DNA of 64,000 nucleotides from Gordius sp. MW1. Its lineage: Eukaryota; Nematomorpha; Gordioida; Gordea; Gordiidae. Where the stretch lies: assembly GCA_964036665.1 (NCBI GenBank), contig OZ038528.1:6392501-6456500 (forward strand), written 5' to 3'. The notes beneath the pieces are model-generated. The model was not told where the DNA came from and made no database searches. It saw only the letters and a list, made by a program, of their open reading frames with translations. Both the position numbers and the translations under genes were made by a program. Below, piece after piece: positions 6,261 through 47,439 of the stretch (its first letter is position 1; each line of letters begins with the position of its first letter).

Positions 6261-6595
6261 ATGAAGCATTGCAGTCTATGCCATTTGTATATAGGATCTA
6301 GTCGAAACATAGGATTTCACAAGTGATATATTGTTTTAATATTAATTTTTAATTTAGATTTCCTGTGAAGAATAAAAATTTGGTAGAAAAATGGATACAA
6401 GTTATGGGTCCACAATTTATTTTAAAGAAGAACTCCCTTATATGCTCAAAACATTTCGAGCAGAAAGACTATTATCTTTCGAAGTTAAATAATAGGCTTC
6501 GGGAGACGGCTGTCCCCAAAATTCATGTAAATAGCAAAACTTCAGCAAAACTCTTCAAGATATTACAAACACCCATAATACCCAAAATAAGGTAA
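6261..6595 (+). CDS. THAP-domain zinc-finger protein (two exons, short)
   Basis: THAP domains are C2CH zinc-binding DNA-binding modules found in animal regulators and P-element-type transposases. Exon 1 runs 6261-6322 and exon 2 6358-6595, across a 35-bp intron with GTGATA and TTTTAATTTAG borders. The join restores a full THAP: MKHCSLC gives Cys4 and Cys7, GFHKFP spans the junction, Trp33 follows, then CSKHF gives Cys50 and His53, and AVPKI closes the domain. The spliced ORF is 99 aa. Exon 2 ends in AAG/GTAATA, a plausible donor, so a longer transcript is possible, but the next acceptors I tried run into stops. It sits between inverted copies of a repeat, so it may be a transposon-derived fragment rather than a host gene. 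The domain call is strong; gene status is uncertain. Confidence 0.75.
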
Positions 6596-15919: not shown

Positions 15920-16790
15920 ATGGTTCTTAAACTTACGAAATTTAAAAGTAAACTTTTTGCGAAGAAGAAGGTCCAATGTCTATTTGTTTTTTTATTTATT
16001 ACCCTTTTTTATTACTATTTCAAAGACACTTTAGCATTTTTAAATGAGTCGGTGTTATTTGAAAATGCTGATACAATTGATTCTATGCTAGCAAAAAATC
16101 CGAAAGAAGACGATCAAAAAATTATATTTTATATAATTCAAAATTATCTCCACAGAGTACACAATCACTTTTTGTATTTATTTTTAAAAGCCAAACTATA
16201 TAGATACCTATAATTTAATGGACCCTCTAAAATCTGATTATTCAATGGGTCAAAGTTTCATTATAAAAAAGTTAATGGATGCTGATCCTGATAATAATTC
16301 ATCAAACACTAAATTTTTTATTGAGTGTGGTGCCTATGATGGTGAAATAAGATCAAATACATTGTACTTTGAAAAACATGGTTGGTCAGGTCTTTTGATT
16401 GAACCTGACCCCAATAACTTCCTAAAACTTTTGACTAAAAATAGAAAAAGTTATGCTGTAAATGCATGTCTTTGTCCCAATACCTCACAACCAAGAATGG
16501 TAATTAAATCTACATATATTAATTTTTTAAATTGCTTTTAGGTAACCTTTATTCCTTTTTCTAATCGTGGTCATATTCAGCAATACGCCAATGAAAAACA
16601 TAAAAGTTGGAATATCAAAACTATGAGTGATCCTTCCCAATACCCTTGCTTCTCTTTGTACACCTTAATGCTTACTATTAAAAAACTGATGCCTTCATTT
16701 CCATTAATTATAGATTATTTTTCTTTGGATATTGAAGGTGCAGAGCTTGATGTGTTGAAAACCATCCCATTCCATAATATTTATATCAAG
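15920..16790 (+). CDS. Star-like FkbM-domain membrane protein, exons 1-3
   Basis: Exons 15920-16156, 16191-16499 and 16542-16790; the last exon is at 33394-33594, giving 331 aa. Introns 1 and 2 are only 34 and 42 bp, with GT...AG borders, and the joins keep frame. Residues 18-34 (VQCLFVFLFITLFYYYF) form a signal-anchor after a basic N-terminus, so the domain should be lumenal. FFIECGAYDG near residues 121-130 is the SAM-binding motif I of FkbM methyltransferases; GWSGLLIEPDP and YFSLDIEGAELDVL complete the fold. Drosophila Star has this architecture and helps EGF-ligand export from the ER; whether this protein is an enzyme or a trafficking factor is unknown. The ATG at 15920 precedes the anchor. 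The long last intron carries the giant inverted repeat. Confidence 0.88.
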
Positions 16791-16857
16791 GTAATTATTC
16801 AATTATTTAACTTTGTAAATGGCTGCCTGTTAGCTACATTAAATTGCACAGTATTGG

Positions 16858-17030
16858 CATGGGCATAGCCAGGTTTTGGATTAGGGGGGGGGGGGGGGGT
16901 GAAGCGTTTAAAAGTTAGATTGGGGGGGGGGGGGGGCAAAACATAATTTTTTTTAATTTTTAAGGGTTTTTTTTATATAAATTTTTTTTCGTCATTTAGG
17001 GGGGGGGGGGGGTGCGGCCCATGGCTACGC
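16858..17030 (+). mobile_element. GGGCGTAGCC MITE, type A copy at the border of the giant inverted repeat
   Basis: Starts ATGGGCATAGCCAGG, contains three long G runs and CAAAACATAATTTTTTTT, and ends CCCATGGCTACGC. Its right end directly abuts the left end of the 16.3-kb inverted repeat, masking any target duplication there. Confidence 0.7.
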
Positions 17031-18350
17031 GAATCCCATTCACAATGCCAATCATCCACAATGCCAATGACTGTAACAAACTAGACACAAAAACTAAAAA
17101 CTATAATTTAAATGGCAAAATTGTAATATATTAAAAAATTACTAAATATAAAGCTATTAATAAAAAAATAAATAACATATGCATAGGCTTTTAATTTGTA
17201 GTTATTTGCACATAAACTAATGAATACTTATAGAGATTAAGGTGCACACGACCTTTTATAAGCTTACGTATTTTAAATGATAAGTCATATGTTATTATTT
17301 TTAAGTAATAGGTCACTATACAGTTAATTTTATTATAATGATTATCATATATCTATGTGTACTTATAATGTTATTAAACAACAGTAGAATAATGACTATG
17401 TTTTAAATTAATTTTGCATTTTGTATATAAATACATTTACATTTGTATTACAATTATGGCTTGTTATAGACTAATATATATTTACTTTATACCAAAATGC
17501 ATAAGTTAATGATACTTATATATAGTTGGATATTAGCAAATTAATTATAAATTGAAAATTTTACATCTGATTAATGTAGATTTTTGGATTTAATTACATT
17601 ATCTAAATATGTAAACTTTCTTATAATTATACTATATATTATTTGTTGACAAATAGATTAGTATTGAAACATCTCTGGGATAATATTGATAAAACATAGA
17701 TTTTTATGATTTGCATATTATTGCTATCAAATAAATTTTATAGTAATTGTTGCCTTTTCTATTTTCTAATATTGATAAATAAATTGGTATTAAATGGACA
17801 TTAGCCTTATAATTTAAAAAATATAAACAATATGAAAAATAGAGATATACATGGCATTGCTATAAAAAAGGACAATAGTTTAATTTTAAGAATAAAAATA
17901 ATATTTTAGGTCTATATGTATATGTTACTAATTTAAACAAAGGTCATAAGGTAATGATATTATAACACATTAACCAATGTCCAAATACTAAAATTCCTAA
18001 GTAAAATAAAACTTGAAATTTTTTTATATGAAACTCTTAATTTTAATTTTCAACATTGACTTTTATCATTGATTTAAGTGAGTGAGATTAAATAAATTTG
18101 CCAGATTTTAATTACAATGATTAAACTTTATTATAATTAATGTTTATTTTATAGAAACAAGTGAACTTTATAATTTTTTCTGTTTATCAAAGATATAAAT
18201 GTTGTTAAATATGACAAACATTAAGTGATTTTACAATTTGAGATACGGGGAACACAACAACGTTATACTTTATGATAAAATTGTGTTAATTTTGGAAATC
18301 ACGTTTGACTTGGTTTGTTAACGTGAGTTTGCTTCGGGGGGTTAGTGGCT
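17031..18350. repeat. Left arm, outer AT-rich segment
   Basis: Non-coding, very AT-rich. It begins with two CAATGCCAAT boxes (17043-17072) and ends near GTTAGTGGCTCATCAGCCC. It is mirrored at 32030-33350. A similar CATTGGCATT box recurs in the loop at the centre. Confidence 0.7.
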
Positions 18351-18713
18351 CATCAGCCCAAAACTTGCTGATAATCCATTCACATCAAGCTGATTTCTCT
18401 GGACAAATTCGGTAAAAAAAATCGAATAAAAACATGATGAAATGCTAAATGTTAGGGACTAGTTTTTAGGAATGCGTAAATTAATTGCATTGTCTTGTAT
18501 TCGCCTCTCCTGTCCAATTCGCAATTTATGGCTGTGGACTTATGCTTCTTTAAAAAATTTTTTTGCTTTCACAAAAAGATCAGCTAATTAATGTGTTGTT
18601 TTAAGTTTTTCGGCCTCGCCCGAGGTCAAATTCCATTAAGGCTTATGGGCGCGATTGATTACCGTTATGTATAAATTCCTTTTGGCGATTTGTCTACGTA
18701 TGACCTTTTTTTC

Positions 18714-20433
18714 CTATAGCTGTTTGTCACATTTAGTGGCCAGCTCCTTTAAGTAGGTTCTCCATGTATTCCTGCACTTACACCAGCTTCGCTTTAGCTC
18801 GTACCTTCTCAAGTCCATATCAATTTTATGCTTCCATGTCAGTTTAGGCCTCCCTCTCTTTCGCTTACCTTCGATTCGCACTTTCTTTATACGATTTGCC
18901 AAGTGACTTTCCTCCCGTCTCTCCAAATGGCCATACCATCTCAATCTTCTTACCACCAACTTTCTCTGAATCGGAACTACATTTAGTTTGTTCTTTATGT
19001 CTTGATTCCTTATATGATCCTTTTTGCTTATTCCCAAGATCCATCTCAACATTCGCATCTCCATTGTAGCCAAGCTTTGCTCCTTTTTTGCCTTTATTTC
19101 CCAGCTTTCCGCTCCATACAATACCGTGGGTACAATAACGGTGTTATATAACCGTCCTTTCAATTTGAGTGGTATGTGCTTGTCACATAGCACACCACTC
19201 AACTCCCTGAATTTTAGCCAGCCTGCGTTTATTCTTGCCTTAATTTCGTTTTCCACACCTCCATCACATTGTACCCTAGAACCAAGATATTTGAATTCTT
19301 TCCTGCTGCTTAAACACAAGTCATCGATTTGCAAGTGTGTTTCTTTGTATTCATTCCCCAACTCCAAGCATACATATTCCGTTTTATCTCGGCGTTTCTA
19401 TACATATCCTTTATTAACATTATATAAGCCTCAGGTACACCATTGGAACTCAGGCTATCCCATATCAACTGCCTTGGCCACTTTATCGAAAGCTTTCTCA
19501 AGATCGATAAAACACATATGAAGATCCTTTTGTTTTTCCTTATATACTTCCATAAGTCTCCTAAGACCATGTATTGCATCTGAAGTCGACTTTCCAGGCA
19601 TGAACCCAAATTGTCGTTCATCTATTGATATTATTTTTCGGAGTCTAGCTTCTATAACCTTTTCCCACACCTTCATTACGTGGCTCGTTAACTTTATCCC
19701 TCGATAGTCGTTGCATTCTTGTACATCTCCCTTCATTTTATAGATAGATATAACATAGCTTTCCCTCCACTCATCAGGCACCATACCACTTGCAAGTATT
19801 TTGTTAAACAGCTTTGCAAGTAGATGTACACCTAAGGGTCCTAGCATTTTGAAAGCTTCCATAGGTATATTATCAGGTCCCACCGCTCTACCCATGGTCA
19901 TCTTTTTGAGCACCTTATCAAGCTCTTCTTCTGTCACTTCTAACTCTGGGTCATATTCATAGTTCTTGCTTTCGCAGTGGTCCGAAAACCCATTTTAATT
20001 GTTTAATAATTCTTTATAATATTCTTCCCAACGATCTATGATTTGATGGTCCAGAGTTAGAGTGATGCCATCTTTGCTCTTTATGGTTTTCACGTTTACC
20101 ACATCCTTTGAGTTCCTTGCCCTAGTCTTTGCGATTTTGTAGATCATTCTTTCCCCTTCTTTACTGGTTAACTTGGCATTCAAATTATCGTAGACCTGTT
20201 TTAGCCTTGGCTACACAACGTTTTGCCTCATTTTTAGCTTTCACATATGCCAATCGTGTTTCCTCATTTCTGTTTCCTGACCATAATTTGTAAAGCTTTC
20301 TTTTCAATTTGACCCGGCGTTGCACGTCTTCGTTCCACCACCATGTCTCCTTATCTTTTTGTATACCTGGTTTACCTTCTCCTAGAACACATCTCGCTAC
20401 TGATCGTACCGTGTTAGCTATGTTATTCCACAT
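18714..20433 (-). pseudogene. RTE-like LINE fragment, left arm (dead)
   Basis: Reading 20433 down to 18714, broken ORFs give a linker (DKETWWWNEDVQRRVKLKR), reverse transcriptase motifs (VGPDNIPMEAFK, ECNDYRGIKLTSHVMKVWEK, RQFGFMPGKSTSDAI, MCFIDLEKAFDKV), then the post-RT region (EFKYLGSRVQCDGG, VLYGAESWEIK, RRLRWYGHLERR). These fit RTE-type non-LTR elements. The endonuclease is missing, and an internal deletion near 19370-19400 removes the palm segment with the catalytic YxDD, so it cannot work. The right arm has the same breaks, so the damage came before the inverted duplication. Confidence 0.85.
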
Positions 20434-21023
20434 ATCGTTAGCATTGACTTTATAACGGATAATTGGAAAAATGGCTAAAAAATTCCCTGCAAATCAATGA
20501 TGACCGTTGCTTACTCCTAATTTGTCTGTCCCTTAACTGAAGTCAATATCCTTGTTAATTACCTTTTGTCTTTGCTATTTATTTTCGTAAATCTTACCTT
20601 GAAACTCGTCCCACATTTACAATTTCTAACCCCAAATATATACTAATGTAATGACCTCTGTTTACATTTAATTTGTCGGACCCCGGCCAGAGGCTAAAAT
20701 CAATTCTAATATTTGTGCCAGCAGCTTTTGACCATTTGGTACCTTGATTTCAAAGATACATTTTCCCATCAAAAAAATATTTGTTCTTTTTCTGAATTTC
20801 ACTTGATTATTAGACTTTTTTTTTGTAAATTTGTCAATTTCGTTGCTTTAGGTTATAAACTTACTTGTTTCTCTGACCCCCTGCTTAGATTTTGCCCATT
20901 GCCAATCCAATTTCTCCCCCTTCCTTTGCCCCTCTTAGTATAAATAAGAGATTAATGATAGACCGCACTGAAACGGTTTAACTTTAACCTCTACACAGTT
21001 CACAAGAAAATTAATAATAAATT
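20434..21023. other. Left-arm spacer between LINE fragment and transposase
   Basis: Non-coding DNA with no domain; it includes the 3' flank of the transposase. It is mirrored at 29355-29944 with rare substitutions. Confidence 0.5.
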
Positions 21024-22651
21024 TTATTCAGGGTCACTAGTGTCTGAAAAGTCACTAGTGTCCCTGTCATCTGAAATATTCGAATCATTATTAGCAAACG
21101 AATGCAATATAACAGTATTAGAATAATTCCAAAATCGCGAGTCAAAATCAAGAGATATCAATTTCGCGACGTTATCTACATAATTAAAAATATCAGTATA
21201 ACGCGAAGTATCAGAATATAAAGCGTGTAAAGTGTTAAGGTGAGCATTTTTCATGCGAACGCATTTATTAATCGAATATAAAGTCTGGCCTTGATCAATC
21301 TGCATGAGATTGATCTCAGTCTTTTCATTATTTTCAAGTAAAAAAGCAATACAGGTATAAATATCTGGATGCGGTTGCCCAATTAAGGACTTTAGTCCAT
21401 TGTGGTAGCCTTCGAGGTGGTTGTTGGTCCTAGGACCAACAGCCTCGTACCTCTGCCACATTGAATAAGGGAATGTGGCAGAGGGGCTAATCCAACTACT
21501 TAAAATATAATCAAAAAAAGATCGTAGTTTTGCATGTTGGGAGACAAAAGGGTCGTCCCAACATGCTCTCCAAACAGTGAAGACATCTTGAAACCGCAAA
21601 AAAGGGAGACCCGAGACTCTCCTAATTAATTTTCGTATGGTGGGATTTCTAGAGTATTCCTTTTTAAATTCAAGTTTATCCATCCGTCTCAAGATAGCCC
21701 TTGAAAAATGGAAGAGACATCCTTAAAAACATATTAGCGCTACAAATTAATTATTACCTTTTACTACGGCATTGGGAAAGCATGTTCGAAGAGCGCTCTT
21801 TGCAGAGCGCTCAAAATCAATTTGGATATAAGTCGGGTCCAATCGCAAACCTAAAGCCAAACATATGTCCTTTAATTTTTGGAAGACCTTGCAATATGTT
21901 TCGCGCTTTCTATTAGGCATAAATACATAGACCGCGGGGATCATATGTTCCTTGTAGTAGGCGTGAATAGTATAAAGCTAAAATTATCGATATATAAATA
22001 CATAAAATTAATAATTTACTTGATGAAATAAGGTAGGGCAGACTTTAAATGTACCATCCATTATGGATGGTACCTGGCACAAAATCCTTAAAATAGAGGG
22101 TGTCCCAAAAATGATGAGATTGTTGTCATCATTCCACAGCAAGAACGACTCATTATTTGGGGTTAATGTTTGGACTTCGGTCAAACGAATTTGACTTCTG
22201 TCCGCGGGAACAAGTTGCCTATTGGGGATGGCCCTTTTTAGCGTCAACCTCACGGATTTCAAGGAAGGCGTTGCCAATGGGAATTCCGGTAGTTCGGGGA
22301 CCTCACGAAGTCTTGACGCCATGGTTTGATGATATATCCTGCTAATTTTGGTAGCAGGATTCGCTGCTACAGCATCTTTTAGCCTCATCCTAGTAACCAA
22401 CGCCTCATACTCTTCCCTCGGTGGTAAATGATTATGTTGTCGCTTGGCAACAACATGTCCATTAAATTCCGAGGCAATTGCTGAGCAGGACGAGTTTCTA
22501 CACGAGTAATATGTTTTGCCTCTAACTGTAATTTTTTTCCTATAGAGGTAGGAAGAAAAATACAAGTGGAATCCACCCTTTTGCGATCTTAAATACTCTG
22601 GAGATGCCTCTATGGGTTGAGATGTTTCCAAAATAGAGTTTGCAGAAGCAC
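21024..22651 (-). CDS. FLYWCH + MULE transposase, left arm (catalytic residues present)
   Basis: Exons on the minus strand: 22651-22020, 21977-21758 and 21721-21024, with introns of 42 and 36 bp. The first exon has a FLYWCH zinc finger (SQKGGFHLYF, YYSCRNSSCSA, then QHNH), which binds DNA. The MULE DDE core follows: SIMDGTFKVCP (first Asp), IQIDFERSAKSAL (second acid), the exon 2/3 junction restoring KGCLFHFSRAI (CxxH), and TNNHLEGYHNG (final Glu). The tail is acidic with repeated DTSD. Recognised coding length is about 515 aa, right for Phantom-type MULEs. No ATG is evident: the frame enters through an acceptor (GTGTTTTAG) at the edge of the satellite array, so a further 5' exon is needed. 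Transcription would have to come from within the array. It lies antisense to the host gene. Confidence 0.85.
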
Positions 22652-25110
22652 CTAAAACACATAAGTAATTAGTATACAATTCAGAAATCTACTTGGTGGC
22701 CTTATAATTCTAAATTGAGGAATGGGTTGAGATGTTGCCAAAAAAGAGTTTGCAGAAACATCTAAAACACCTAAGTAATTAGTACAAAATTCAGAAATCT
22801 ACTTGATGGCATTGTAATTCTAAATTGAGCAATGGGTTGAGAAGTTCTAAATTGAGGAATGGGTTGAGAAGTTCTAAATTGAGGAATGGGTTGAGATGTT
22901 GCCAAAAAAGAGTTTGCAGAAACATCTAAAACACCTAAGTAATTAGTCAAAATTCAGAAATCTACTTGGTGGCCTTATAATTCTAAATTGAGAAATGGGT
23001 TGAGATGTTTCCAAAATAGAGTTTGCAGAAGCACCTAAAATACCTAAGTAATTAGTATACAATTCAGAAATCTACTTGGTGGCCTTATACTTCTAAATTG
23101 AGCAATGGGTTGAGAAGTTTCCAAAATAGAGTTTGCAGAAGCACCTAAAACACCTAAGTAATTAGTACAAAATTCAGAAATCTACTTGGTGGCCTTATAA
23201 TTCTAAATTGAGCAATGGGTTGAGAAGTTCTAAATTGAGGAATGGGTTGAGAAGTTCTAAATTGAGGAATGGGTTGAGATGTTGCCAAAAAAGAGTTTGC
23301 AGAAACATCTAAAACACCTAAGTAATTAGTACAAAATTCAGAAATCTACTTGGTGGCCTTATAATTCTAAATTGAAAAATGGGTTGAGATGTTTCCAAAA
23401 TAGAGTTTGCAGAAGCACCTAAAACACCTAAGTAATTAGTATACAATTCAGAAATCTACTTGGTGGCCTTATAATTCTAAATTGAGGAATGGGTTGAGAT
23501 GTTGCCAAAAAAGAGTTTGCAGAAACATCTAAAACACCTAAGTAATTAGTACAAAATTCAGAAATCTACTTGGTGGCCTTATAATTCTAAATTGAGAAAT
23601 GGGTTGAGATGTTTCCAAAATAGAGTTTGCAGAAGCACCTAAAACACCTAAGTAATTAGTATACAATTCAGAAATCTACTTGGTGGCCTTATAATTCTAA
23701 ATTGAGGAATGGGTTGAGATGTTGCCAAAAAAGAGTTTGCAGAAACATCTAAAACACCTAAGTAATTAGTACAAAATTCAGAAATCTACTTGATGGCATT
23801 GTAATTCTAAATTGAGCAATGGGTTGAGAAGTTCTAAATTGAGGAATGGGTTGAGAAGTTCTAAATTGAGGAATGGGTTGAGATGTTGCCAAAAAAGAGT
23901 TTGCAGAAACATCTAAAACACCTAAGTAATTAGTACAAAATTCAGAAATCTACTTGGTGGCCTTATAATTCTAAATTGAGAAATGGGTTGAGATGTTTCC
24001 AAAATAGAGTTTGCAGAAGCACCTAAAACACCTAAGTAATTAGTATACAATTCAGAAATCTACTTGGTGGCCTTATAATTCTAAATTGAGGAACGGGTTG
24101 AGATGTTGCCAAAAAAGAGTTTGCAGAAACATCTAAAACATCTAAGTAATTAGTACAAAATTCAGAAATCTACTTGATGGCCTTATAATTCTAAATTGAG
24201 CAATGGGTTGAGAAGTTCTAAATTGAGGAATGGGTTGAGAAGTTCTAAATTGAGGAATGGGTTGAGATGTTGCCAAAAAAGAGTTTGCAGAAACATCTAA
24301 AACATCTAAGTAATTAGTACAAAATTCAGAAATCTACTTGATGGCCTTATAATTCTAAATTGAGCAATGGGTTGTGAAGTTCTAAATTGAGGAATGGGTT
24401 GAGAAGTTCTAAATTGAGGAATGGGTTGAGATGTTGCCAAAAAAGAGTTTGCAGAAACATCTAAAACACCTAAGTAATTAGTACAAAATTCAGAAATCTA
24501 CTTGATGGCCTTATAATTCTAAATTGAGCAATGGGTTGAGAAGTTCTAAATTGAGGAATGGGTTGAGAAGTTCTAAATTGAGGAATGGGTTGAGATGTTG
24601 CCAAAAAAGAGTTTGCAGAAACATCTAAAACATCTAAGTAATTAGTACAAAATTCAGAAATCTACTTGATGGCCTTATAATTCTAAATTGAGCAATGGGT
24701 TGAGAAGTTCTAAATTGAGGAATGGGTTGAGAAGTTCTAAATTGAGGAATGGGTTGAGATGTTGCCAAAAAAGAGTTTGCAGAAACATCTAAAACACCTA
24801 AGTAATTAGTACAAAATTCAGAAATCTACTTGATGGCCTTATAATTCTAAGTTGAGCAATGGGTTGAGAAGTTCTAAATTGAGGAATGGGTTGAGATGTT
24901 GCCAAAATAGAGTTTGCAGAAGCACCTAAAACACCTAAGTAATTAGTACAAATTCAGAAATCTACTTGATGGCCTTATAATTCTAAATTGAGGAATGGGT
25001 TGAGATGTTTCCAAAATAGAATTTGCAGAAACACCTAAGTAATTAGTATACAATTCAGAAATTTACTTGGTGGCCTTATAATTCTAAATTGAGGAATGGG
25101 TTCAGAAGTT
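22652..25110. repeat. Left-arm satellite array derived from the transposase 5' exon
   Basis: About 19 units, counted by CAGAAATCTACTT. Each has an 83-85-bp block (GTTGCCAAAAAAGAGTTTGC to GGCCTTATAA) plus one to three copies of a 27-bp block (TTCTAAATTGAGGAATGGG TTGAGAAG), giving periods near 110, 137 and 164 bp. Read on the minus strand, the block contains the same acceptor (GTGTTTTAG) and coding start as transposase exon A (ASANSILETSQPI); identity stops just after CAACCCAT. The array therefore amplified the edge of the gene. Confidence 0.85.
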
Positions 25111-25268
25111 GATAAAACAGGCATTTTAGAGTTTGCAGTTAGATCTTAAAAATTAATCATACAATTCCAAAATTAGGACGGAAGCGCTGATTTAGGATAA
25201 ATCTGTGCGGGAGATACGTTCAAATTGGAATTTCGCCACTATTTAATTGGTTATCAATATTAGACGTT
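25111..25268. repeat. Left half of the central palindrome
   Basis: Unique-looking 158-bp sequence including GGACGGAAGCGCTGATTTAG and GGGAGATACGTTCAAATTGG, matched in inverse at 25345-25502. Nothing coding is seen. Confidence 0.8.
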
Positions 25269-25344
25269 ATGTTACATACCTCTAAAACTTTGGTAACTTT
25301 TGATTGGTTTGGCCATTGGCATTCTGAAGCATTGGCAATATGGA
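25269..25344. other. 76-bp loop at the centre of the giant inverted repeat
   Basis: The only unpaired sequence between the arms. It contains CCATTGGCATTCTGAAGCATTGGCAATATGG, shown here as two CATTGGCA boxes, which resemble the two CATTGGCATTG / GATTGGCATTG boxes at the outer ends of the arms. It may be a relic of an element terminus at the junction where the two copies met. Confidence 0.7.
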
Positions 25345-25502
25345 AACGTCTAATATTGATAACCAATTAAATAGTGGCGAAATTCCAATTTGAACGTATC
25401 TCCCGCACAGATTTATCCTAAATCAGCGCTTCCGTCCTAATTTTGGAATTGTATGATTAATTTTTAAGATCTAACTGCAAACTCTAAAATGCCTGTTTTA
25501 TC
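25345..25502. repeat. Right half of the central palindrome
   Basis: Inverse of 25111-25268; starts AACGTCTAATATTGATAACC. Confidence 0.8.
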
Positions 25503-27742
25503 AACTTCTGAACCCATTCCTCAATTTAGAATTATAAGGCCACCAAGTAAATTTCTGAATTGTATACTAATTACTTAGGTGTTTCTGCAAATTCTATTTT
25601 GGAAACATCTCAACCCATTCCTCAATTTAGAATTATAAGGCCATCAAGTAGATTTCTGAATTTGTACTAATTACTTAGGTGTTTTAGGTGCTTCTGCAAA
25701 CTCTATTTTGGCAACATCTCAACCCATTCCTCAATTTAGAACTTCTCAACCCATTGCTCAACTTAGAATTATAAGGCCATCAAGTAGATTTCTGAATTTT
25801 GTACTAATTACTTAGGTGTTTTAGATGTTTCTGCAAACTCTTTTTTGGCAACATCTCAACCCATTCCTCAATTTAGAATTATAAGGCCACCAAGTAGATT
25901 TCTGAATTGTATACTAATTACTTAGGTGTTTTAGGTGCTTCTGCAAACTCTTTTTTGGCAACATCTCAACCCATTCCTCAATTTAGAACTTCTCAACCCA
26001 TTCCTCAATTTAGAACTTCTCAACCCATTGCTCAATTTAGAATTATAAGGCCATCAAGTAGATTTCTGAATTTTGCACTAATTACTTAGGTGTTTTAGAT
26101 GTTTCTGCAAACTCTTTTTTGGCAACATCTCAACCCATTCCTCAATTTAGAACTTCTCAACCCATTCCTCAATTTAGAACTTCTCAACCCATTGCTCAAT
26201 TTAGAATTATAAGGCCATCAAGTAGATTTCTGAATTTTGTACTAATTACTTAGATGTTTTAGATGTTTCTGCAAACTCTTTTTTGGCAACATCTCAACCC
26301 ATTCCTCAATTTAGAACTTCTCAACCCATTCCTCAATTTAGAACTTCTCAACCCATTGCTCAATTTAGAATTATAAGGCCATCAAGTAGATTTCTGAATT
26401 TTGTACTAATTACTTAGATGTTTTAGATGTTTCTGCAAACTCTTTTTTGGCAACATCTCAACCCATTCCTCAATTTAGAACTTCTCAACCCATTCCTCAA
26501 TTTGGAACTTCTCAACCCATTGCTCAATTTAGAATTATAAGGCCATCAAGTAGATTTCTGAATTTTGTACTAATTACTTAGGTGTTTTAGATGTTTCTGC
26601 AAACTCTTTTTTGGCAACATCTCAACCCATTCCTCAATTTAGAACTTCTCAACCCATTCCTCAATTTAGAACTTCTCAACCCATTGCTCAATTTAGAATT
26701 ATAAGGCCATCAAGTAGATTTCTGAATTTTGTACTAATTACTTAGGTGTTTTAGATGTTTCTGCAAACTCTTTTTTGGCAACATCTCAACCCATTCCTCA
26801 ATTTAGAATTATAAGGCCACCAAGTAGATTTCTGAATTGTATACTAATTACTTAGGTGTTTTAGGTGCTTCTGCAAACTCTATTTTGGAAACATCTCAAC
26901 CCATTTCTCAATTTAGAATTATAAGGCCACCAAGTAGATTTCTGAATTTTGTACTAATTACTTAGGTGTTTTAGATGTTTCTGCAAACTCTTTTTTGGCA
27001 ACATCTCAACCCATTCCTCAATTTAGAACTTCTCAACCCATTCCTCAATTTAGAACTTCTCAACCCATTGCTCAATTTAGAATTACAATGCCATCAAGTA
27101 GATTTCTGAATTTTGTACTAATTACTTAGGTGTTTTAGATGTTTCTGCAAACTCTTTTTTGGCAACATCTCAACCCATTCCTCAATTTAGAATTATAAGG
27201 CCACCAAGTAGATTTCTGAATTGTATACTAATTACTTAGGTGTTTTAGATGTTTCTGCAAACTCTTTTTTGGCAACATCTCAACCCATTCCTCAATTTAG
27301 AATTATAAGGCCACCAAGTAGATTTCTGAATTGTATACTAATTACTTAGGTGTTTTAGGTGCTTCTGCAAACTCTATTTTGGAAACATCTCAACCCATTT
27401 CTCAATTTAGAATTATAAGGCCACCAAGTAGATTTCTGAATTTTGTACTAATTACTTAGGTGTTTTAGATGTTTCTGCAAACTCTTTTTTGGCAACATCT
27501 CAACCCATTCCTCAATTTAGAACTTCTCAACCCATTCCTCAATTTAGAACTTCTCAACCCATTGCTCAATTTAGAATTATAAGGCCACCAAGTAGATTTC
27601 TGAATTTTGTACTAATTACTTAGGTGTTTTAGGTGCTTCTGCAAACTCTATTTTGGAAACTTCTCAACCCATTGCTCAATTTAGAAGTATAAGGCCACCA
27701 AGTAGATTTCTGAATTGTATACTAATTACTTATGTGTTTTAG
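25503..27742. repeat. Right-arm satellite array
   Basis: Mirror of the left array but with about 17 rather than 19 AAGTAGATTTCTG units, and with a different order of 110/137/164-bp periods near the centre (an extra 112-bp unit around 25890). Unequal exchange or slippage since the inverted duplication would explain this. An ORF at 25907-26089 (repeated TSQPIPQFR) is a by-product of the exon-derived repeat. Confidence 0.85.
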
Positions 27743-29354
27743 GTGCTTCTGTAAACTCTATTTTGGAAACATCTCAACCCATAGAGGCATCTCCAGAGTA
27801 TTTAAGATCGCAAAAGGGTGGATTCCACTTGTATTTTTCTTCCTACCTCTATAGGAAAAAAATTACAGTTAGAGGCAAAACATATTACTCGTGTAGAAAC
27901 TCGTCCTGCTCAGCAATTGCCTCGGAATTTAATGGACATGTTGTTGCCAAGCGACAACATAATCATTTACCACCGAGGGAAGAGTATGAGGCGTTGGTTA
28001 CTAGGATGAGGCTAAAAGATGCTGTAGCAGCGAATCCTGCTACCAAAATTAGCAGGATATATCATCAAACCATGGCGTCAAGACTTCGTGAGGTCCCCGA
28101 ACTACCGGAATTCCCATTGGCAACGCCTTCCTTGAAATCCGTGAGGTTGACGCTAAAAAGGGCCATCCCCAATAGGCAACTTGTTCCCGCGGACAGAAGT
28201 CAAATTCGTTTGACCGAAGTCCAAACATTAACCCCAAATAATGAGTCGTTCTTGCTGTGGAATGATGACAACAATCTCATCATTTTTGGGACACCCTCTA
28301 TTTTAAGGATTTTGTGCCAGGTAGGTACATTTAAAGTCTGCCCTACCTTATTTCATCAAGTAAATTATTAATTTTATGTATTTATATATCGATAATTTTA
28401 GCTTTATACTATTCACGCCTACTACAAGGAACATATGATCCCCGCGGTCTATGTATTTATGCCTAATAGAAAGCGCGAAACATATTGCAAGGTCTTCCAA
28501 AAATTAAAGGACATATGTTTGGCTTTAGGTTTGCGATTGGACCCGACTTATATCCAAATTGATTTTGAGCGCTCTGCAAAGAGCGCTCTTCGAACATGCT
28601 TTCCCAATGCCGTAGTAAAAGGTAATAATAATTTGTAGCGCTAATATGTTTTTAAGGATGTCTCTTCCATTTTTCAAGGGCTATCTTGAGACGGATGGAT
28701 AAACTTGAATTTAAAAAGGAATACTCTAGAAATCCCACCATACGAAAATTAATTAGGAGAGTCTCGGGTCTCCCTTTTTTGCGGTTTCAAGATGTCTTCA
28801 CTGTTTGGAGAGCATGTTGGGACGACCCTTTTGTCTCCCAACATGCAAAACTACGATCTTTTTTTGATTATATTTTAAGTAGTTGGATTAGCCCCTCTGC
28901 CACATTCCCTTATTCAATGTGGCAGAGGTACGAGGCTGTTGGTCCTAGGACCAACAACCACCTCGAAGGCTACCACAATGGACTAAAGTCCTTAATTGGG
29001 CAACCGCATCCAGATATTTATACCTGTATTGCTTTTTTACTTGAAAATAATGAAAAGACTGAGATCAATCTCATGCAGATTGATCAAGGCCAGACTTTAT
29101 ATTCGATTAATAAATGCGTTCGCATGAAAAATGCTCACCTTAACACTTTACACGCTTTATATTCTGATACTTCGCGTTATACTGATATTTTTAATTATGT
29201 AGATAACGTCGCGAAATTGATATCTCTTGATTTTGACTCGCGATTTTGGAATTATTCTAATACTGTTATATTGCATTCGTTTGCTAATAATGATTCGAAT
29301 ATTTCAGATGACAGGGACACTAGTGACTTTTCAGACACTAGTGACCCTGAATAA
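27743..29354 (+). pseudogene. FLYWCH + MULE transposase, right arm (first catalytic Asp deleted)
   Basis: Exons 27743-28359, 28402-28621 and 28657-29354, mirrored from the left arm with introns of 42 and 35 bp. FLYWCH, the IDFE box, CxxH and NHLEGYH are kept, but a 15-bp in-frame deletion at about 28322 removes the residues around MDG, including the first acid of the DDE triad (CQVGTFKVCP instead of SIMDGTFKVCP). The left arm has there an imperfect palindrome, GTACCATCCA TTA TGGATGGTAC, whose loop and one side are gone here, the mark of slippage at a hairpin. The reading frame survives, so a catalytically dead DNA-binding protein could still be made. Sense to the host gene. Confidence 0.85.
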
Positions 29355-29944
29355 AATTTATTATTAATTTTCTTGTGAACTGTGTAGAGGTTAAAGTTAA
29401 ACCGTTTCAGTGCGGTCTATCATTAATCTCTTATTTATACTAAGAGGGGCAAAGGAAGGGGGAGAAATTGGATTGGCAATGGGCAAAATCTAAGCAGGGG
29501 GTCAGAGAAACAAGTACGTTTATAACCTAAAGCAACGAAATTGACAAATTTACAAAAAAAAAGTCTAATAATCAAGTGAGATTCAGAAAAAGAACAAATA
29601 TTTTTTTGATGGGAAAATGTATCTTTGAAATCAAGGTACCAAATGGTCAAAAGCTGCTGGCACAAATATTAGAATTGATTTTAGCCTCTGGCCGGGGTCC
29701 GACAAATTAAATGTAAACAGAGGTCATTACATTAGTATATATTTGGGGTTAGAAATTGTAAATGTGGGACGAGTTTCAAGGTAAGATTTACGAAAATAAA
29801 TAGCAAAGACAAAAGGTAATTAACAAGGATATTGACCTCAGTTAAGGGACAGACAAATTAGGAGTAAGCAACGGTCATCATTGATTTGCAGGGAATTTTT
29901 TAGCCATTTTTCCAATTATCCGTTATAAAGTCAATGCTAACGAT
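29355..29944. other. Right-arm spacer between transposase and LINE fragment
   Basis: Mirror of 20434-21023, with isolated changes such as one Phe/Ser codon difference in an overlapping open frame. No gene. Confidence 0.5.
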
Positions 29945-31664
29945 ATGTGGAATAACATAGCTAACACGGTACGATCAGTAGCGAGATGTGTTCTAGGAGA
30001 AGGTAAACCAGGTATACAAAAAGATAAGGAGACATGGTGGTGGAACGAAGACGTGCAACGCCGGGTCAAATTGAAAAGAAAGCTTTACAAATTATGGTCA
30101 GGAAACAGAAATGAGGAAACACGATTGGCATATGTGAAAGCTAAAAATGAGGCAAAACGTTGTGTAGCCAAGGCTAAAACAGGTCTACGATAATTTGAAT
30201 GCCAAGTTAACCAGTAAAGAAGGGGAAAGAATGATCTACAAAATCGCAAAGACTAGGGCAAGGAACTCAAAGGATGTGGTAAACGTGAAAACCATAAAGA
30301 GCAAAGATGGCATCACTCTAACTCTGGACCATCAAATCATAGATCGTTGGGAAGAATATTATAAAGAATTATTAAACAATTAAAATGGGTTTTCGGACCA
30401 CTGCGAAAGCAAGAACTATGAATATGACCCAGAGTTAGAAGTGACAGAAGAAGAGCTTGATAAGGTGCTCAAAAAGATGACCATGGGTAGAGCGGTGGGA
30501 CCTGATAATATACCTATGGAAGCTTTCAAAATGCTAGGACCCTTAGGTGTACATCTACTTGCAAAGCTGTTTAACAAAATACTTGCAAGTGGTATGGTGC
30601 CTGATGAGTGGAGGGAAAGCTATGTTATATCTATCTATAAAATGAAGGGAGATGTACAAGAATGCAACGACTATCGAGGGATAAAGTTAACGAGCCACGT
30701 AATGAAGGTGTGGGAAAAGGTTATAGAAGCTAGACTCCGAAAAATAATATCAATAGATGAACGACAATTTGGGTTCATGCCTGGAAAGTCGACTTCAGAT
30801 GCAATACATGGTCTTAGGAGACTTATGGAAGTATATAAGGAAAAACAAAAGGATCTTCATATGTGTTTTATCGATCTTGAGAAAGCTTTCGATAAAGTGG
30901 CCAAGGCAGTTGATATGGGATAGCCTGAGTTCCAATGGTGTACCTGAGGCTTATATAATGTTAATAAAGGATATGTATAGAAACGCCGAGATAAAACGGA
31001 ATATGTATGCTTGGAGTCGGGGAATGAATACAAAGAAACACACTTGCAAATCGATGACTTGTGTTTAAGCAGCAGGAAAGAATTCAAATATCTTGGTTCT
31101 AGGGTACAATGTGATGGAGGTGTGGAAAACGAAATTAAGGCAAGAATAAACGCAGGCTGGCTAAAATTCAGGGAGTTGAGTGGTGTGCTATGTGACAAGC
31201 ACATACCACTCAAATTGAAAGGACGGTTATATAACACCGTTATTGTACCCACGGTATTGTATGGAGCGGAAAGCTGGGAAATAAAGGCAAAAAAGGAGCA
31301 AAGCTTGGCTACAATGGAGATGCGAATGTTGAGATGGATCTTGGGAATAAGCAAAAAGGATCATATAAGGAATCAAGACATAAGGAACAAACTAAATGTA
31401 GTTCCGATTCAGAGAAAGTTGGTGGTAAGAAGATTGAGATGGTATGGCCATTTGGAGAGACGGGAGGAAAGTCACTTGGCAAATCGTATAAAGAAAGTGC
31501 GAATCGAAGGTAAGCGAAAGAGAGGGAGGCCTAAACTGACATGGAAGCATAAAATTGATATGGACTTGAGAAGGTACGAGCTAAAGCGAAGCTGGTGTAA
31601 GTGCAGGAATACATGGAGAACCTACTTAAAGGAGCTGGCCACTAAATGTGACAAACAGCTATAG
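29945..31664 (+). pseudogene. RTE-like LINE fragment, right arm (dead)
   Basis: Same broken order as the left copy, with the same missing endonuclease and YxDD segment. Only isolated changes are visible between copies (for instance MELGNEY versus MESGNEY, and IKNKL versus IRNKL). Confidence 0.85.
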
Positions 31665-33350
31665 GAAAAAAAGGTCATACGTAGACAAATCGCCAAAAGG
31701 AATTTATACATAACGGTAATCAATCGCGCCCATAAGCCTTAATGGAATTTGACCTCGGGCGAGGCCGAAAAACTTAAAACAACACATTAATTAGCTGATC
31801 TTTTTGTGAAAGCAAAAAAATTTTTTAAAGAAGCATAAGTCCACAGCCATAAATTGCGAATTGGACAGGAGAGGCGAATACAAGACAATGCAATTAATTT
31901 ACGCATTCCTAAAAACTAGTCCCTAACATTTAGCATTTCATCATGTTTTTATTCGATTTTTTTTACCGAATTTGTCCAGAGAAATCAGCTTGATGTGAAT
32001 GGATTATCAGCAAGTTTTGGGCTGATGAGCCACTAACCCCCCGAAGCAAACTCACGTTAACAAACCAAGTCAAACGTGATTTACAAAATTAACACAATTT
32101 TATCATAAAGTATAACGTTGTTACGGTGTTCCCCGTATCTCAAATTGTAAAATCACTTAATGTTTGTCATATTTAACAACATTTATATCTTTGATAAACA
32201 GAAAAAATTATAAAGTTCACTTGTTTCTATAAAATAAACATTAATTATAATAAAGTTTAATCATTGTAATTAAAATCTGGCAAATTTATTTAATCTCACT
32301 CACTTAAATCAATGATAAAAGTCAATGTTGAAAATTAAAATTAAGAGTTTCATATAAAAAAATTTCAAGTTTTATTTTACTTAGGAATTTTAGTATTTGG
32401 ACATTGGTTAATGTGTTATAATATCATTACCTTATGACCTTTGTTTAAATTAGTAACATATACATATAGACCTAAAATATTATTTTTATTCTTAAAATTA
32501 AACTATTGTCCTTTTTTATAGCAATGCCATGTATATCTCTATTTTTCATATTGTTTATATTTTTTAAATTATAAGGCTAATGTCCATTTAATACCAATTT
32601 ATTTATCAATATTAGAAAATAGAAAAGGCAACAATTACTATAAAATTTATTTGATAGCAATAATATGCAAATCATAAAAATCTATGTTTTATCAATATTA
32701 TCCCAGAGATGTTTCAATACTAATCTATTTGTCAACAAATAATATATAGTATAATTATAAGAAAGTTTACATATTTAGATAATGTAATTAAATCCAAAAA
32801 TCTACATTAATCAGATGTAAAATTTTCAATTTATAATTAATTTGCTAATATCCAACTATATATAAGTATCATTAACTTATGCATTTTGGTATAAAGTAAA
32901 TATATATTAGTCTATAACAAGCCATAATTGTAATACAAATGTAAATGTATTTATATACAAAATGCAAAATTAATTTAAAACATAGTCATTATTCTACTGT
33001 TGTTTAATAACATTATAAGTACACATAGATATATGATAATCATTATAATAAAATTAACTGTATAGTGACCTATTACTTAAAAATAATAACATATGACTTA
33101 TCATTTAAAATACGTAAGCTTATAAAAGGTCGTGTGCACCTTAATCTCTATAAGTATTCATTAGTTTATGTGCAAATAACTACAAATTAAAAGCCTATGC
33201 ATATGTTATTTATTTTTTTATTAATAGCTTTGTATTTAGTAATTTTTTAATATATTACAATTTTGCCATTTAAATTATAGTTTTTAGTTTTTGTGTCTAG
33301 TTTGTTACAGTCATTGGCATTGTGGATGATTGGCATTGTGAATGGGATTC
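31665..33350. repeat. Right arm, outer segment
   Basis: Mirror of 17031-18713; non-coding, AT-rich, ending in two GATTGGCATTGTG-type boxes. Beyond 33350 the host intron resumes for 43 bp before exon 4. Confidence 0.7.
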
Positions 33351-33393
33351 ATAAATATGCTTGCTTTATCAAAGTTCTTAAATTAAATAAAAG

Positions 33394-33594
33394 ACTATGT
33401 CGGTTGAATTTACGCACGTTTCTGGAGGAAAGTATGCCCTGATCGAGTTCATGTCAAAACACAATTTTGTCGCAGTCGATAGCGTGGAACGTGAAGATAA
33501 CTTAGCCAACGATATTATATTTGCCAATAGGAGGCATTTTACACCGTCCGTTCTCAACAAAATAATGAATCATAATATCGCACTCGAAAAATAA
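33394..33594 (+). CDS. Star-like FkbM-domain protein, exon 4 (C-terminus)
   Basis: The acceptor AAATAAAAG/ACT at 33393 joins in phase 0 to the donor ATCAAG/GTAATT at 16790, giving YIK-TMSVEFTHV, the expected beta-strand after the SLDIEGAE motif in FkbM/Star proteins. The 66 residues end in NHNIALEK. An AATAAA lies at 33680-33685. The fit in phase and fold shows that the 16.6-kb stretch between 16791 and 33393 is a true intron, unless the assembly is wrong. Exon 4 converges with the minus-strand gene at 33818-34288. Confidence 0.85.
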   Translation, partial: TMSVEFTHVSGGKYALIEFMSKHNFVAVDSVEREDNLANDIIFANRRHFTPSVLNKIMNHNIALEK

Positions 33595-33817: not shown

Positions 33818-34288
33818 TTAGGGTTCTCTATTGATTTTCTTTTGTTGGGATAGTGTGAGAACTTGGGCTTTGATGCCAGAATCGGGGATTTGTTTCACGC
33901 TTTCAACCGCTGTGAAATTGGAATCTACCTTAATATCCGTGACGCAGTGTTCAAACGGGATTTCCATGGAATTTTTGGGGGGTTTTGCCTTTTTAACGCT
34001 CTCCGACTGGTTAGCAAACTTGGAGGTGGGTGCAATAGTTGGTGGAAACTTTTCATTTTCTAACGAACATGCTGGACTTTCTACTGATTCGGATCGGTCT
34101 GATCCTGACGGGGAGGCCCCTTGACTACCCCCAGACATGTGAGAGGAAAGTCCGTCGCTAGGGTCGGCGATTTCTTCAGGGATTGCCACCGGAGGGGGTG
34201 GAACTGCCGGGGGAACTTTCCCCCCCTTGGCATTAGCCCCTGCTGGTTTGGGAGCCGGTTTTTTGAAACATCTCATACAATTACCCAT
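33818..34288 (-). CDS. Predicted N-myristoylated, palmitoylated small protein, unknown function
   Basis: An intact single-exon ORF of 156 aa starting MGNCMRCFKKPAPKP. Gly2 with Asn3 and a following basic patch fits the N-myristoylation signal, and Cys4/Cys7 suit palmitoylation, so membrane attachment on the cytoplasmic side is likely. The rest is low-complexity: PPAVPPPPVAIPEE, a Ser/Gly-rich stretch (SHMSGGSQGASPSGSDRSES), then a Lys-rich tail. No folded domain is visible and I do not recognise a family. It converges with the Star-like gene; their stops lie about 220 bp apart. The composition is less AT-rich than the surroundings, which supports real coding. It may be one exon of a longer gene. 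Confidence 0.65.
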   Translation of the reverse strand: MGNCMRCFKKPAPKPAGANAKGGKVPPAVPPPPVAIPEEIADPSDGLSSHMSGGSQGASPSGSDRSESVESPACSLENEKFPPTIAPTSKFANQSESVKKAKPPKNSMEIPFEHCVTDIKVDSNFTAVESVKQIPDSGIKAQVLTLSQQKKINREP

Positions 34289-35214
34289 GTGATTGTCAAT
34301 TCAATGAGACTGGGTCACAAAACGACTATTACATCGATCGTCGTTGGTACAATATGAAAACATTAGGCATGGAAATGATTTGAGAGATATTTACGCATTA
34401 GTTGTTATGTGATTACGTCAGTTATTGTTCAATTTGCGAAAGATGTATTAATTGTTGCATTGCAGTGATGACGTTATAGTTTTGTCAAATGTACAGCTTT
34501 GAATGTTATTTTGCGCTAATGAATATAGAAAATTGATAAAAATGTCATTCAATATATAACACCCAGTCATGATTTGTTAACCTAATTATATCTTAAATTT
34601 GAGATCGCTACAGTTTTTATATCGCTTAAATTATGGGGTAATACCAAATAAGAATAGTTTGTTGCAAGCACCAGCATTTAAGTACAAATTTCATTGTTTA
34701 AAATTATCTGATGTTAAAACGCTTGCCCAGATTTAGTGATGGGAAAACGCTTAGCACTAGCGCGCTTAGCACCTCCCCGCTGATGGGAATAGCCCATTAA
34801 ATACGCTATGTCTACTAGCACATAGTCACTTTAAGTGCTATAAGCTATAGGAGATGGGAGGTTTGAGGTGCTATGGGAGATAGGAGGTTTGAGGCGCTAG
34901 AGCTATGGGAGGTTTGAGGTGCTATGAGCTATAGGAGATGGGAGGTTTGAGGTGCTATGAGCTATAGGATATGGGAGGTTTGAGGCGCTAAAGCTATAGC
35001 CGATAGCACTTAAATGCGCTACTCCTATAGCACGGCGCTAACACTGGAAATAATTTTTTTAATTGTTTATTTATTAGATATTAAATATGTAAAAATATAA
35101 GTTTTTTGCCCTATCTCACCATCTAACTACGACTTATTTTAAGATAAATTTTATTAAGTGTATGACTTTAATTTAAATATTTTGCATTGCTTCTACATTT
35201 ATTTTATTAATAGC

Positions 35215-44665: not shown

Positions 44666-46745
44666 TCAGTGAGCCATTTTTACTTCATTATTTCTTGATA
44701 ATTTTATTAAAATTTTTCTAGTCATTTTGTGCCAATTTTTATACATAATAAATTTTTCTCGATAAAAATTGGGTAAAATACTTCAAATTATTATATGAAT
44801 TACTACTCGCAAAGAAACTATATGAAGATACCGTTTATTCAAATTATTATTGGGCAAATATTCATACTCAGGTTCTCATTTTTAGTGTAAATTTATTACA
44901 TTTAGTTGTAAAAGAGAAGAGAAAAAATTTCTAACTCTTTCTAAGGGCCAACGAACATATTCTACACAAAGAGTTGGGTGTGGAAATGTGTCTTTTCAAA
45001 TTACGACAAATCTTGATTCCTTTTCATTAGTTATGTATAAATTTTACGAGAATCATAAATGTAAATTTATTATTTTAATGTAATATAGTACTAAAGGTTT
45101 AGCAATATCTAAATATCTGCCATAGCAACGATAACTAAATGAAGCTGAAACTGAATTAGCAGATAGTAGCATTGGTATCAATTACAGCATGAAAATGTTG
45201 CAAACCTTTTGATGTAGAGTGGATAATTGTGTTAATTAAAATTTTACACATCTTAGAACAATTAACAAACTTAATGTAAGTAAAAATCACTTTGTTGATA
45301 CACTCACTACACTTTTTAGTGACGGTGATGGAAATGTGGATGTGCCAGATGTACAGAATAAATATTCAGGGATTTTTTTTTCTAACTAAAAAACAACAAA
45401 TCATATTTGCAACATTTCTATAGGTTTTATTTGTGGATGTTACCTACAAACTTAATGTATTAAAATTTCCGGTTTTTTATTGCTAGTCAGATAATTATGG
45501 CATCAGTAGGGTTGTGGGAACATTTTTATTTGAATCCGAAAATCTATCACAAGTTCTATATTTTTTATTGTTTTCACAAATTTTAATCCATAGTGGACAT
45601 CTATTCAGACAATTATTAGTCATAAATCGCGTCCAAATAGAAAGGCTTTCAGCATAGCATTTCCTCGTTACAAAGTCGAATTATGCATTTTCCATTTATT
45701 CCAAATATTTAAGAGGGAAATCACACTTAAAGAAGTGCGATGTTCCATAGTCCAAAAACTTTTAAACCATTGGTATATGCCAAATCCCCCACTCACTAAG
45801 ATGACTTTCTTTTTTTAAACAATTTATTTGTCAGAAGTTACAACCTATGTTAACAGTTCTTGCCATAATATTACAGAAGAATGGTCATTGGCATTTAGGA
45901 GGTCAAATTTGAATTTTTTAAATATTATTAACGATCGCATTAAATTACACAACAGAATTCTAAAGACCATTTTTAAAAGTATTCTTCATTAAAAGATATT
46001 TTTAGAAATTTTATATTTTGTATCAATTCCCTGGATATTGAGAAGGAGCATAAGATAATAATGGAGATGGACTCTAAAAGTACACAGGTATTTTTGCATG
46101 AGAGTTCGGAATTGCCATTCAGGGAGGTATTAACAAATTATGCATTTAATTTAGTATTAATCAAATTAAAAGTAAAAATGAAATTTTATAAGTCATTCAA
46201 ATCATAATTTTTCAACTCATCTCGCAGCGACAACGCTTTGCCTACAATTCGGCTTTGATATATTTTTTATGAATGAATTAATGTTAAAATATTAGAGCTG
46301 TTAAGAGAGAAAGTAATTCAGTATGTATTTTTCATATAATAAATACTAATTTTAAAATTTGCCCCAAGTTTCAAAATCTCCTCTATCGATATTATCCAAC
46401 TGAACAGTTTAAAACTCAGCAGATAACCTATTCGCTTATTTTCTTACCCTGAGCCAAAATTAAATTAGGCATGCATAAATTGGATCTAAGATTAGTATTA
46501 GGGTTAGAGTTTGGGTTGAAGAAGGGTTGAAGTTAAAGTTTGACTGACTTTTATTGCTTGCATGAGACACTATTATTAACCATTAGCATTATAAAATTTA
46601 GGCAAATTTTTGGTGTTTCAAAAATAAAATGTGTTTTAATATAAATTAAATAACTTATTTTGCCAAATCTCAATAAATACTTTATTTTCTGTGAATTATT
46701 TACTAAATGATTACAGTAATACATTATTATATGTAATAATAATAA
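44666..46745. other. AT-rich region, no gene recognised
   Basis: Broken ORFs and possible transposon remnants, for example the 45120-45200 segment resembling 43560-43640. No domain could be named. Confidence 0.35.
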
Positions 46746-47094: not shown

Positions 47095-47430
47095 ATTATC
47101 TATTATATAATAAACATAAATAAAAGTTGTTTACTTTTAATTGCTACTTTTAATTGCTATGCAATTTAACTAGTTATATAATAAACATAAATAAAAGTTG
47201 TTTACTTTTAATTGCTACTTTTAATTGCTATGCAATTTAACTAGTTATATAATAAACATAAATAAAAGTTGTTTACTTTTAATTGCTATGCAATTTAACT
47301 AGTTTTTGTTATATAATAAACATAGATAAAAGTTGTTTACTTTTAATGCTATGCAATTTTACTAGTTATATAATAAACATAAATAAAAGTTGTTTACTTT
47401 TTAATTGCTATGCAATTTAACTAGTTTTGG
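47095..47430. repeat. ~60-bp tandem repeat
   Basis: Five units of TTATATAATAAACATAAATA AAAGTTGTTTACTTTTAATTG CTATGCAATTTAACTAG, some with a GCTACTTTTAATT duplication. Further single units sit among the satellites (47652-47712) and five inverted units lie at 62468-62990. Confidence 0.8.
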
Positions 47431-47439
47431 GGTTAGAAT

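Follow-up and report, generated by a model that had tools for sequence, protein, structure and literature searches.

A tail-to-tail pair of Phantom-type MULE copies in an intron of Gordius sp. MW1, a probable by-product of transposition

The palindrome and its host gene

The window, i.e., the whole stretch of DNA that was analysed, comprises 64,000 bp of Gordius sp. MW1 (contig OZ038528.1, positions 6,392,501 to 6,456,500 of the forward strand), and positions without a locus name refer to it. At 17031-33350, it contains a 16.3-kb palindrome built from two inverted copies of an approximately 8-kb FLYWCH/MULE (Mutator-like element) transposon of the Phantom type, which together occupy most of the last intron of a Star-like gene. 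The present analysis concerns the structure of this palindrome, its counterparts elsewhere in the genome and the way in which such pairs may arise.

The host gene is composed of four plus-strand exons. Exon 1 (15920..16156), delimited by its open frame and splice signals, carries the ATG and, by eye, an N-terminal hydrophobic stretch. Exons 2 (16191..16499) and 3 (16542..16790) encode the first and second parts of an FkbM domain; the former matches PF05050 with an E-value of 3.7e-6 on the open reading frame (ORF) 16188-16538, and the latter, on its own ORF, with an E-value of 0.00061, which falls short of the cut-off. Exon 4 (33394..33594) supplies the stop codon and completes the frame. The four joined exons have GT/AG at all borders, an uninterrupted frame of 331 amino acids and a PF05050 match with an E-value of 6.8e-14. 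The closest relative of the protein is an unnamed protein of the horsehair worm Gordionus (47% identity), and the next relatives are mostly from arthropods, several of them named Star. The last intron (16791-33393) is 16,603 bp long and would measure 283 bp if the insert were removed. The original prediction had placed the palindrome inside the last intron of an in-frame plus-strand gene, which is borne out by the ordered exons on both sides and the continuous frame. The host strand crosses both arms, and a full-length pre-mRNA would, as predicted, carry the transposase first in antisense and then in sense.

Based on a comparison of the window with itself (best 70 of 630 self-matches), the arms 17031-23229 and 33350-27164 are 99.2% identical across 6.2 kb, and a tandem-array portion with more frequent gaps extends the match inward to 25268/25345. 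This leaves an unpaired loop of approximately 76 bp at ~25269-25344. The differences between the arms lie mostly within the tandem arrays; the outer 5.56 kb has seven substitutions, excluding the lesion site described below. These results, together with a PF04500 match in the transposase and a PF10551 match in a single copy elsewhere in the genome, agree with the predicted near-perfect arms of ~8 kb, each with a FLYWCH/MULE transposase, and the arm alignment also agrees with the predicted 76-bp loop.

Both borders of the palindrome, 17031 and 33350, are exact left ends of the transposon. Comparison with full single copies showed that the left copy, e1 (17031..25344, plus strand), stops approximately 25 bp short of a complete right end, while the inverted right copy, e2 (25345..33350, minus strand), lacks approximately 100 bp of its own right end. 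The loop (25269..25344) is right-end sequence of e1 whose partner was deleted in e2, as judged from the arm alignment and from the right end known in single copies. From the outside to the inside, each arm consists of the left end, a fragment of a long interspersed nuclear element (LINE) with a reverse-transcriptase domain, the transposase gene, a tandem array and the right end. Comparison of the ends delimits the left terminus of e1 (17031..17068, plus strand), with two 16-bp repeats, and that of e2 (33313..33350, minus strand).

The e1 transposase is encoded on the minus strand by exon 1 (22020..22688, with an approximate 5′ start), which includes the FLYWCH finger and the first catalytic aspartate, exon 2 (21756..21977), whose IQIDFE motif we take to hold the second catalytic aspartate, and exon 3 (21024..21719), where NNHLEGYH presumably marks the region of the catalytic glutamate. 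The plus-strand counterparts in e2 are 27706..28359, 28402..28623 and 28659..29354. The LINE fragment (RVT_1, PF00078) lies at 18709..20443 on the minus strand in e1 and is mirrored at 29935..31669 on the plus strand in e2. The original prediction had described a linked LINE; the fragment is indeed found in both arms but is carried inside each near-complete transposon. The tandem arrays, with 110/27-bp units, extend over 22612..25110 in e1 and 25493..27782 in e2. Neither the Rfam nor the tRNA scan of the window gave a match.

The transposon family and its inverted pairs

The joined transposase exons of the single copy S1 match FLYWCH (PF04500, E-value of 6.5e-6) and MULE (PF10551, E-value of 3.3e-14), and the best relative of the transposase, again from Gordionus, is 37% identical. 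Full single copies start with G-AATCCCATTC and finish with GAACAGAAGCG; by eye, the two ends have only a short imperfect similarity to each other. Target-site duplications flank seven of the nine two-ended single copies (8 bp in five, 9 bp in two) and are absent from the other two, a count that leaves out S10, which has no left end, and S11, whose right end was not found. Given the co-occurrence of FLYWCH and MULE domains with target duplications of 8-9 bp, the element qualifies as a Phantom-type MULE under the criteria given in the parts of PMC3169594 and PMC6446971 used here; the latter also describes some Phantoms without terminal inverted repeats. Two older relatives, O1 and O2, lack the LINE portion, which was therefore probably inserted before the present subfamily spread. 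Relatives of this LINE with 84-96% identity are present elsewhere in the genome (best 40 of 906 candidates). In the window itself, a weak remnant of a MULE domain is found at 45594-45815 on the plus strand (PF10551, E-value of 1.6e-4, short of the curated cut-off).

We searched the 211.8-Mb assembly (12 contigs) using the left end and the transposase as queries, considering the best 40 of 171 and the best 40 of 106 candidates, respectively. At least 25 near-identical arms (98-100%) were found at 18 loci, which comprise 11 single copies and seven inverted pairs, the window included; 25 is a lower bound, and both match lists reach down to ~70% identity. Private single-nucleotide polymorphisms (SNPs) average 4.2 per arm over 5.56 kb. 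Judging from this alignment, the family is a young, star-like burst and was recently mobile.

All seven pairs are tail-to-tail, with the right ends facing, and neither direct nor head-to-head pairs were seen among the 18 loci. With 25 arms, 0.0007 pairs within 250 bp would be expected by chance. Pairing thus recurs at 7 of 18 loci and therefore probably reflects the mode of transposition of the element, and the one-off locus implied by the original prediction turns out to be one of seven with the same shape. The outer flanks carry a direct target duplication in none of the seven pairs, from which we conclude that the pairs did not move as units.

The seven centres are all different, and two of them are intact. 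The right ends of the C7 pair are both complete, with a 27-bp spacer between them; the 8 bases that precede the left end of e1 reappear beside the right end of e2, and the 8 bases that precede the left end of e2 reappear beside the right end of e1. The C3:21.12M pair has a 186-bp spacer and one of the two cross-matches. As far as these junctions can be read, the cross-matched duplications are the trace of two integrations with an inverted spacer. The remaining pairs (the window, C1, C3:21.98M, C4 and C8) have lost part of the right end in one or both copies, each to a different point; breakage and rejoining at a palindrome centre would be expected to leave such a pattern.

Outside the lesion site, three of the four SNPs exclusive to two copies are shared within pairs, a value reached in 18 of 20,000 permutations. 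Additionally, arrays of 45 markers are identical between the arms of one pair, and a 188-bp deletion is common to both arms of another. A tail-to-tail inverted pair is also present in a related family (~72% identity), and the arms of that pair are 97.8% identical up to the limits of the fetched stretch.

Two further arrangements were observed. The C1 pair (G000:C1:18487956-18519000, L009-L012) measures 29.8 kb, and the array of one of its arms has grown to more than 10 kb, possibly the start of a satellite. On C8, two related MULE copies in opposite orientation (G000:C8:31162936-31169467 and 31235729-31242260) lie ~70 kb apart and are 99.7% identical over 6.5 kb.

A lesion hotspot over the first catalytic aspartate codon

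All 25 arms contain, at arm coordinates 5023-5048, the 26-bp palindrome GTACCATCCAT-GTAA-ATGGATGGTAC or its remains, within the codons for VPSIYMDGTFK, whose aspartate we take to be the first catalytic one. The commonest allele is present in eight arms, and 12 different indel alleles are distributed over the other 17, of which 11 are frameshifted by length, one has lost the aspartate codon in frame, one has gained a stop and four keep the aspartate in frame. In the same arms, 32 indel events occur outside this site in ~5.5 kb (36 rows minus three due to the missing left end of S10 and minus one continuation row), which corresponds to ~0.15 expected in 26 bp. In the window, the site in e1 (22051..22073, minus strand) is 3 bp under the commonest allele and in frame, and that in e2 (28314..28329, plus strand) is 18 bp shorter and has lost the catalytic aspartate codon. 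The two arms differ at this site in pairs P2, P4, P5 and P7 and agree in P1, P3 and P6; breakage would thus have continued after pairing, provided that both arms of a pair derive from a single copy.

Four relatives (O4, O5, L041 and L044) retain the perfect palindrome, and O1 retains a version that is one base pair shorter. Deletions at the site are present in L047 and in both arms of the O3 pair, while L046, L048, L049 and L050 have gaps nearby, none of them at its centre. Perfect sites are broken in 20 of 33 cases and imperfect sites in 0 of 8 (Fisher 0.003), in a count that includes the 25 arms, assumes that deleted copies were perfect beforehand and rests on copies that are not independent. 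The pattern of the site with a middle of 0-12 bp occurs at 21 places in the genome and a control pattern at none; all 21 fall inside the matches listed for the transposase (best 40 of 43 candidates).

Six short hairpins were found in the arm, and the one formed by the site has the highest stability (-10.3 kcal/mol). In the second (-10.0), copy S3 has a 16-bp deletion that begins at the hairpin centre; the other four, which are weaker, have no deletions. Since the lesions follow hairpin stability, we favour hairpin cleavage with end joining as their origin. Judged by eye, the alleles include a tandem 8-bp duplication and one that resembles a templated inverted insertion. The older copy O1, ~8% diverged, retains the site, which disfavours breakage at a constant rate; the rate therefore varied through time, and breakage seems tied to the active phase of the element. 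The scar of an excised nested element is a disfavoured origin, as none of the listed matches (best 40 of 43 candidates) is split at the site and the commonest allele is kept in 8 of 25 arms; nevertheless, the tandem 8-bp duplication speaks against dismissing it fully. A resemblance of the site to transposon ends (a CATCCA core, by eye) was too weak to be used. A literature search over titles and abstract openings found no report of a lesion hotspot of this kind.

Three features of the window lie apart from the transposon. Arms of 1.1 kb at 47226-48348 and 61819-62946, 95.8% identical and separated by 13.5 kb, form another inverted repeat, perhaps a second long-ended element; frames resembling FWPMVIFSIGQQPADGQK recur in this region. 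A THAP zinc-finger domain at 6353-6592 on the plus strand (E-value of 6.8e-11) is possibly a transposon-derived gene piece. An open frame of 160 amino acids (33821-34300, minus strand), a short way downstream of the palindrome and opposite in orientation to the Star-like gene, has MGNCMRCF near its start and no Pfam match.

Origin of the pairs, silencing potential and known systems

The reading that we prefer, with a probability of roughly seven in ten, is that the locus is a recurrent by-product of transposition, i.e., two tail-to-tail copies of a Phantom-type MULE that has recently been mobile, with a centre that was trimmed later. Two copies would have entered the ~283-bp last intron of the Star-like gene close to each other, in opposite orientation and with their right ends facing; end joining would afterwards have trimmed the centre, to give the palindrome with its loop as seen today. 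In the mechanism that we favour, the ends of two copies would synapse crosswise, the left end of one with the right end of the other, and the two synapses, tethered to each other, would integrate within tens to hundreds of bases. The outcome would be two inverted copies that flank an inverted target segment. Crosswise synapsis between the ends of sister copies is favoured here for accounting in a single step for the closeness, the inverted orientation and the inversion of the spacer, and it fits the private variants common to the arms of a pair.

Several observations weigh against this account. The centre of the window palindrome is lost, which makes its two integrations unreadable from duplications, and its arms have no exclusive SNP in common. 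The mean SNP distance within pairs, 7.1, is barely under the 9.3 between loci, and the C3:21.12M pair is without its second cross-match. The crosswise model also predicts head-to-head pairs equally often, and none was seen; gene conversion inside a palindrome could imitate an origin from sister copies, and recombination between two inverted copies that had inserted separately would likewise leave a flipped spacer. Additionally, at C7, a small related element (G000:C7:6430644-6430902) terminates 13 bp ahead of e1 and has an 8-bp duplication of its own, AGAGTAGT; this duplication overlaps that of e1, which places three insertions of the family in ~32 bp of target. Such clustering hints at a target preference that brings copies together.

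These last points lead to the best-surviving alternative, which we regard as possible and clearly less likely than crosswise synapsis: independent insertions near existing family ends, with recombination between the inverted copies then flipping the spacer and evening the arms. Inverted repeats are expected to flip a spacer by recombination, the C7 element provides an instance of neighbouring insertion into overlapping targets, and the older copy O1 has, by eye, a family-like inverted right end 12 bp off. Nevertheless, in a search with exact 11-base ends, which misses degraded ends, right-to-right and left-to-left ends facing within 30 bp were found only at C7, and the right-to-left search gave three hits, all in a single array; general self-targeting by the family was rejected on this basis. 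Independent insertions give no account of the tail-to-tail orientation in seven of seven pairs and leave the exclusive shared SNPs unexplained unless copying was local. The array itself (G000:C5:17669385-17669922) has right-end/left-end joins every 254 bp with a constant 8-bp spacer and may consist of a small family element repeated in tandem together with its target duplication.

The original prediction was of a Mu-killer-like locus, whose intron hairpin would be diced into small RNAs that silence the MULE and the LINE; in a stronger form of this reading, the locus would persist for that reason. A full-length host pre-mRNA, in which the intron could fold, might indeed be diced into small interfering RNAs (siRNAs). 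The genome encodes Dicer_dimer domains (PF03368) at two places and Piwi domains (PF02171) as 22 exon matches in five clusters; RNA-dependent RNA polymerase (PF05183) gave no match in the genome, with control genomes equally silent. The geometry of the palindrome, the host strand, these Dicer and Piwi domains, the LINE relatives of up to 96% identity elsewhere (best 40 of 906 candidates) and the maize precedent (PMC3440606) all speak for such a role. On the other side, six further pairs of the same shape make special retention needless, and the conservation of the window arms is not above that of other pairs (7 SNPs, range 4-11). Moreover, the transposases run outward from the centre in both arms; the transcripts of the element itself would therefore not fold, and only read-through would. 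In the part of PMC3440606 drawn on here, Skibbe et al. (2012) described sense read-through from a flanking gene in non-silencing maize plants, where it accompanied the failure of silencing, and antisense transcripts from a promoter within Mu killer in silencing plants. In our judgement, the production of small RNAs from the locus is evenly balanced, whereas a biologically relevant silencing role, and with it persistence for that reason, is doubtful. Under the preferred transposition by-product, silencing would be a side effect and not the reason for the existence of the structure.

A broader proposal, which we consider unlikely, is that the MULE limits itself while mobile, at the DNA and possibly the RNA level: crosswise synapsis would produce inverted pairs, each a potential hairpin, and palindrome breakage would hit the catalytic codons, approximately half of the copies losing a catalytic codon or the frame. 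Far less probable is a Foldback-type element, in which the palindrome itself would be mobile with 8-kb inverted ends; the seven palindromes do have inverted, alike outer ends and tandem arrays inside, but movement as a unit is ruled out by outer target duplications at none of the seven, compared with seven of nine two-ended single copies, and by seven distinct centres. An assembly or library fold-back artefact is just as improbable, for, difficult as long palindromes are to assemble, each border coincides exactly with a transposon end, the flanks are unlike each other with host exons ordered across them, and the arms differ by arrays, SNPs and indels.

Overall, the predicted architecture is supported, a by-product of transposition is its most likely origin, and silencing is, from the sequence, a potential only. 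The origin of inverted transposon duplications such as Mu killer is hard to deduce from a lone case with a damaged centre; in one genome with seven young pairs, two of them with intact centres, the two integrations, the inversion of the spacer and the loss of the centre become readable. With seven hairpin loci and eleven single-copy controls, silencing of the family by hairpin alleles can also be asked about. A separate puzzle is posed by the hotspot of lesions over the catalytic codons, where most copies of the burst are affected and an older relative is intact.

Several known systems can be compared with the present one. In Drosophila, a long inverted repeat at a hairpin RNA (hpRNA) or endo-siRNA locus, if transcribed, folds into a Dicer substrate. 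The window palindrome shares the long inverted repeat with the hpRNA loci but has near-complete transposon copies as arms and is known from sequence. In Mu killer, the transposase halves run from the outer ends toward the inversion point, which is opposite to the outward direction found here. The Mu-killer-like architecture of the original prediction thus holds for the inverted MULE duplication, the outer ends of the same side and the crossing host gene, but not for the direction of the transposase. According to the portion of PMC3440606 considered, Mu killer consists of an autonomous MULE (MuDR) that carries an internal deletion and is duplicated in inverted orientation, and its outer ends, like those of the window palindrome, come from the same transposon end (here the left terminus). 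It also adjoins host genes (PMC3440606). Its halves each hold ~1.3 kb of mudrA around an unsequenced centre, while the arms here are near full length. Silencing was demonstrated for Mu killer; the present locus, one of seven, offers the structure.

Compared with the Phantom-type MULEs, i.e., Tm1 of root-knot nematodes, Muta1 of Aedes and Phantom, the present element has the MULE transposase in common, and it shares the FLYWCH finger with Phantom and Tm1 (PMC3169594, PMC5225508 and PMC6446971). As described in the parts of these reports that we used, target duplications of 8-10 bp and, in several cases, tandem repeats in or near the ends are further likenesses. The differences are that the ends of the present element are merely short imperfect repeats, that the big array lies on one side only and that a LINE fragment is carried inside. 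The same parts of the three reports do not mention tail-to-tail pairs, and a search of titles and abstract openings found no report of recurrent tail-to-tail MULE pairs. A likeness in mechanism is offered by the alternative transposition of Ac/Ds in maize, in which, as in our model, the ends of two separate elements are used and the flanks are rearranged (PMC4270019, in the part considered). There, two elements that are already near each other give rise to deletions, duplications and composite insertions (PMC4270019), whereas here the product would be the inverted pair itself.

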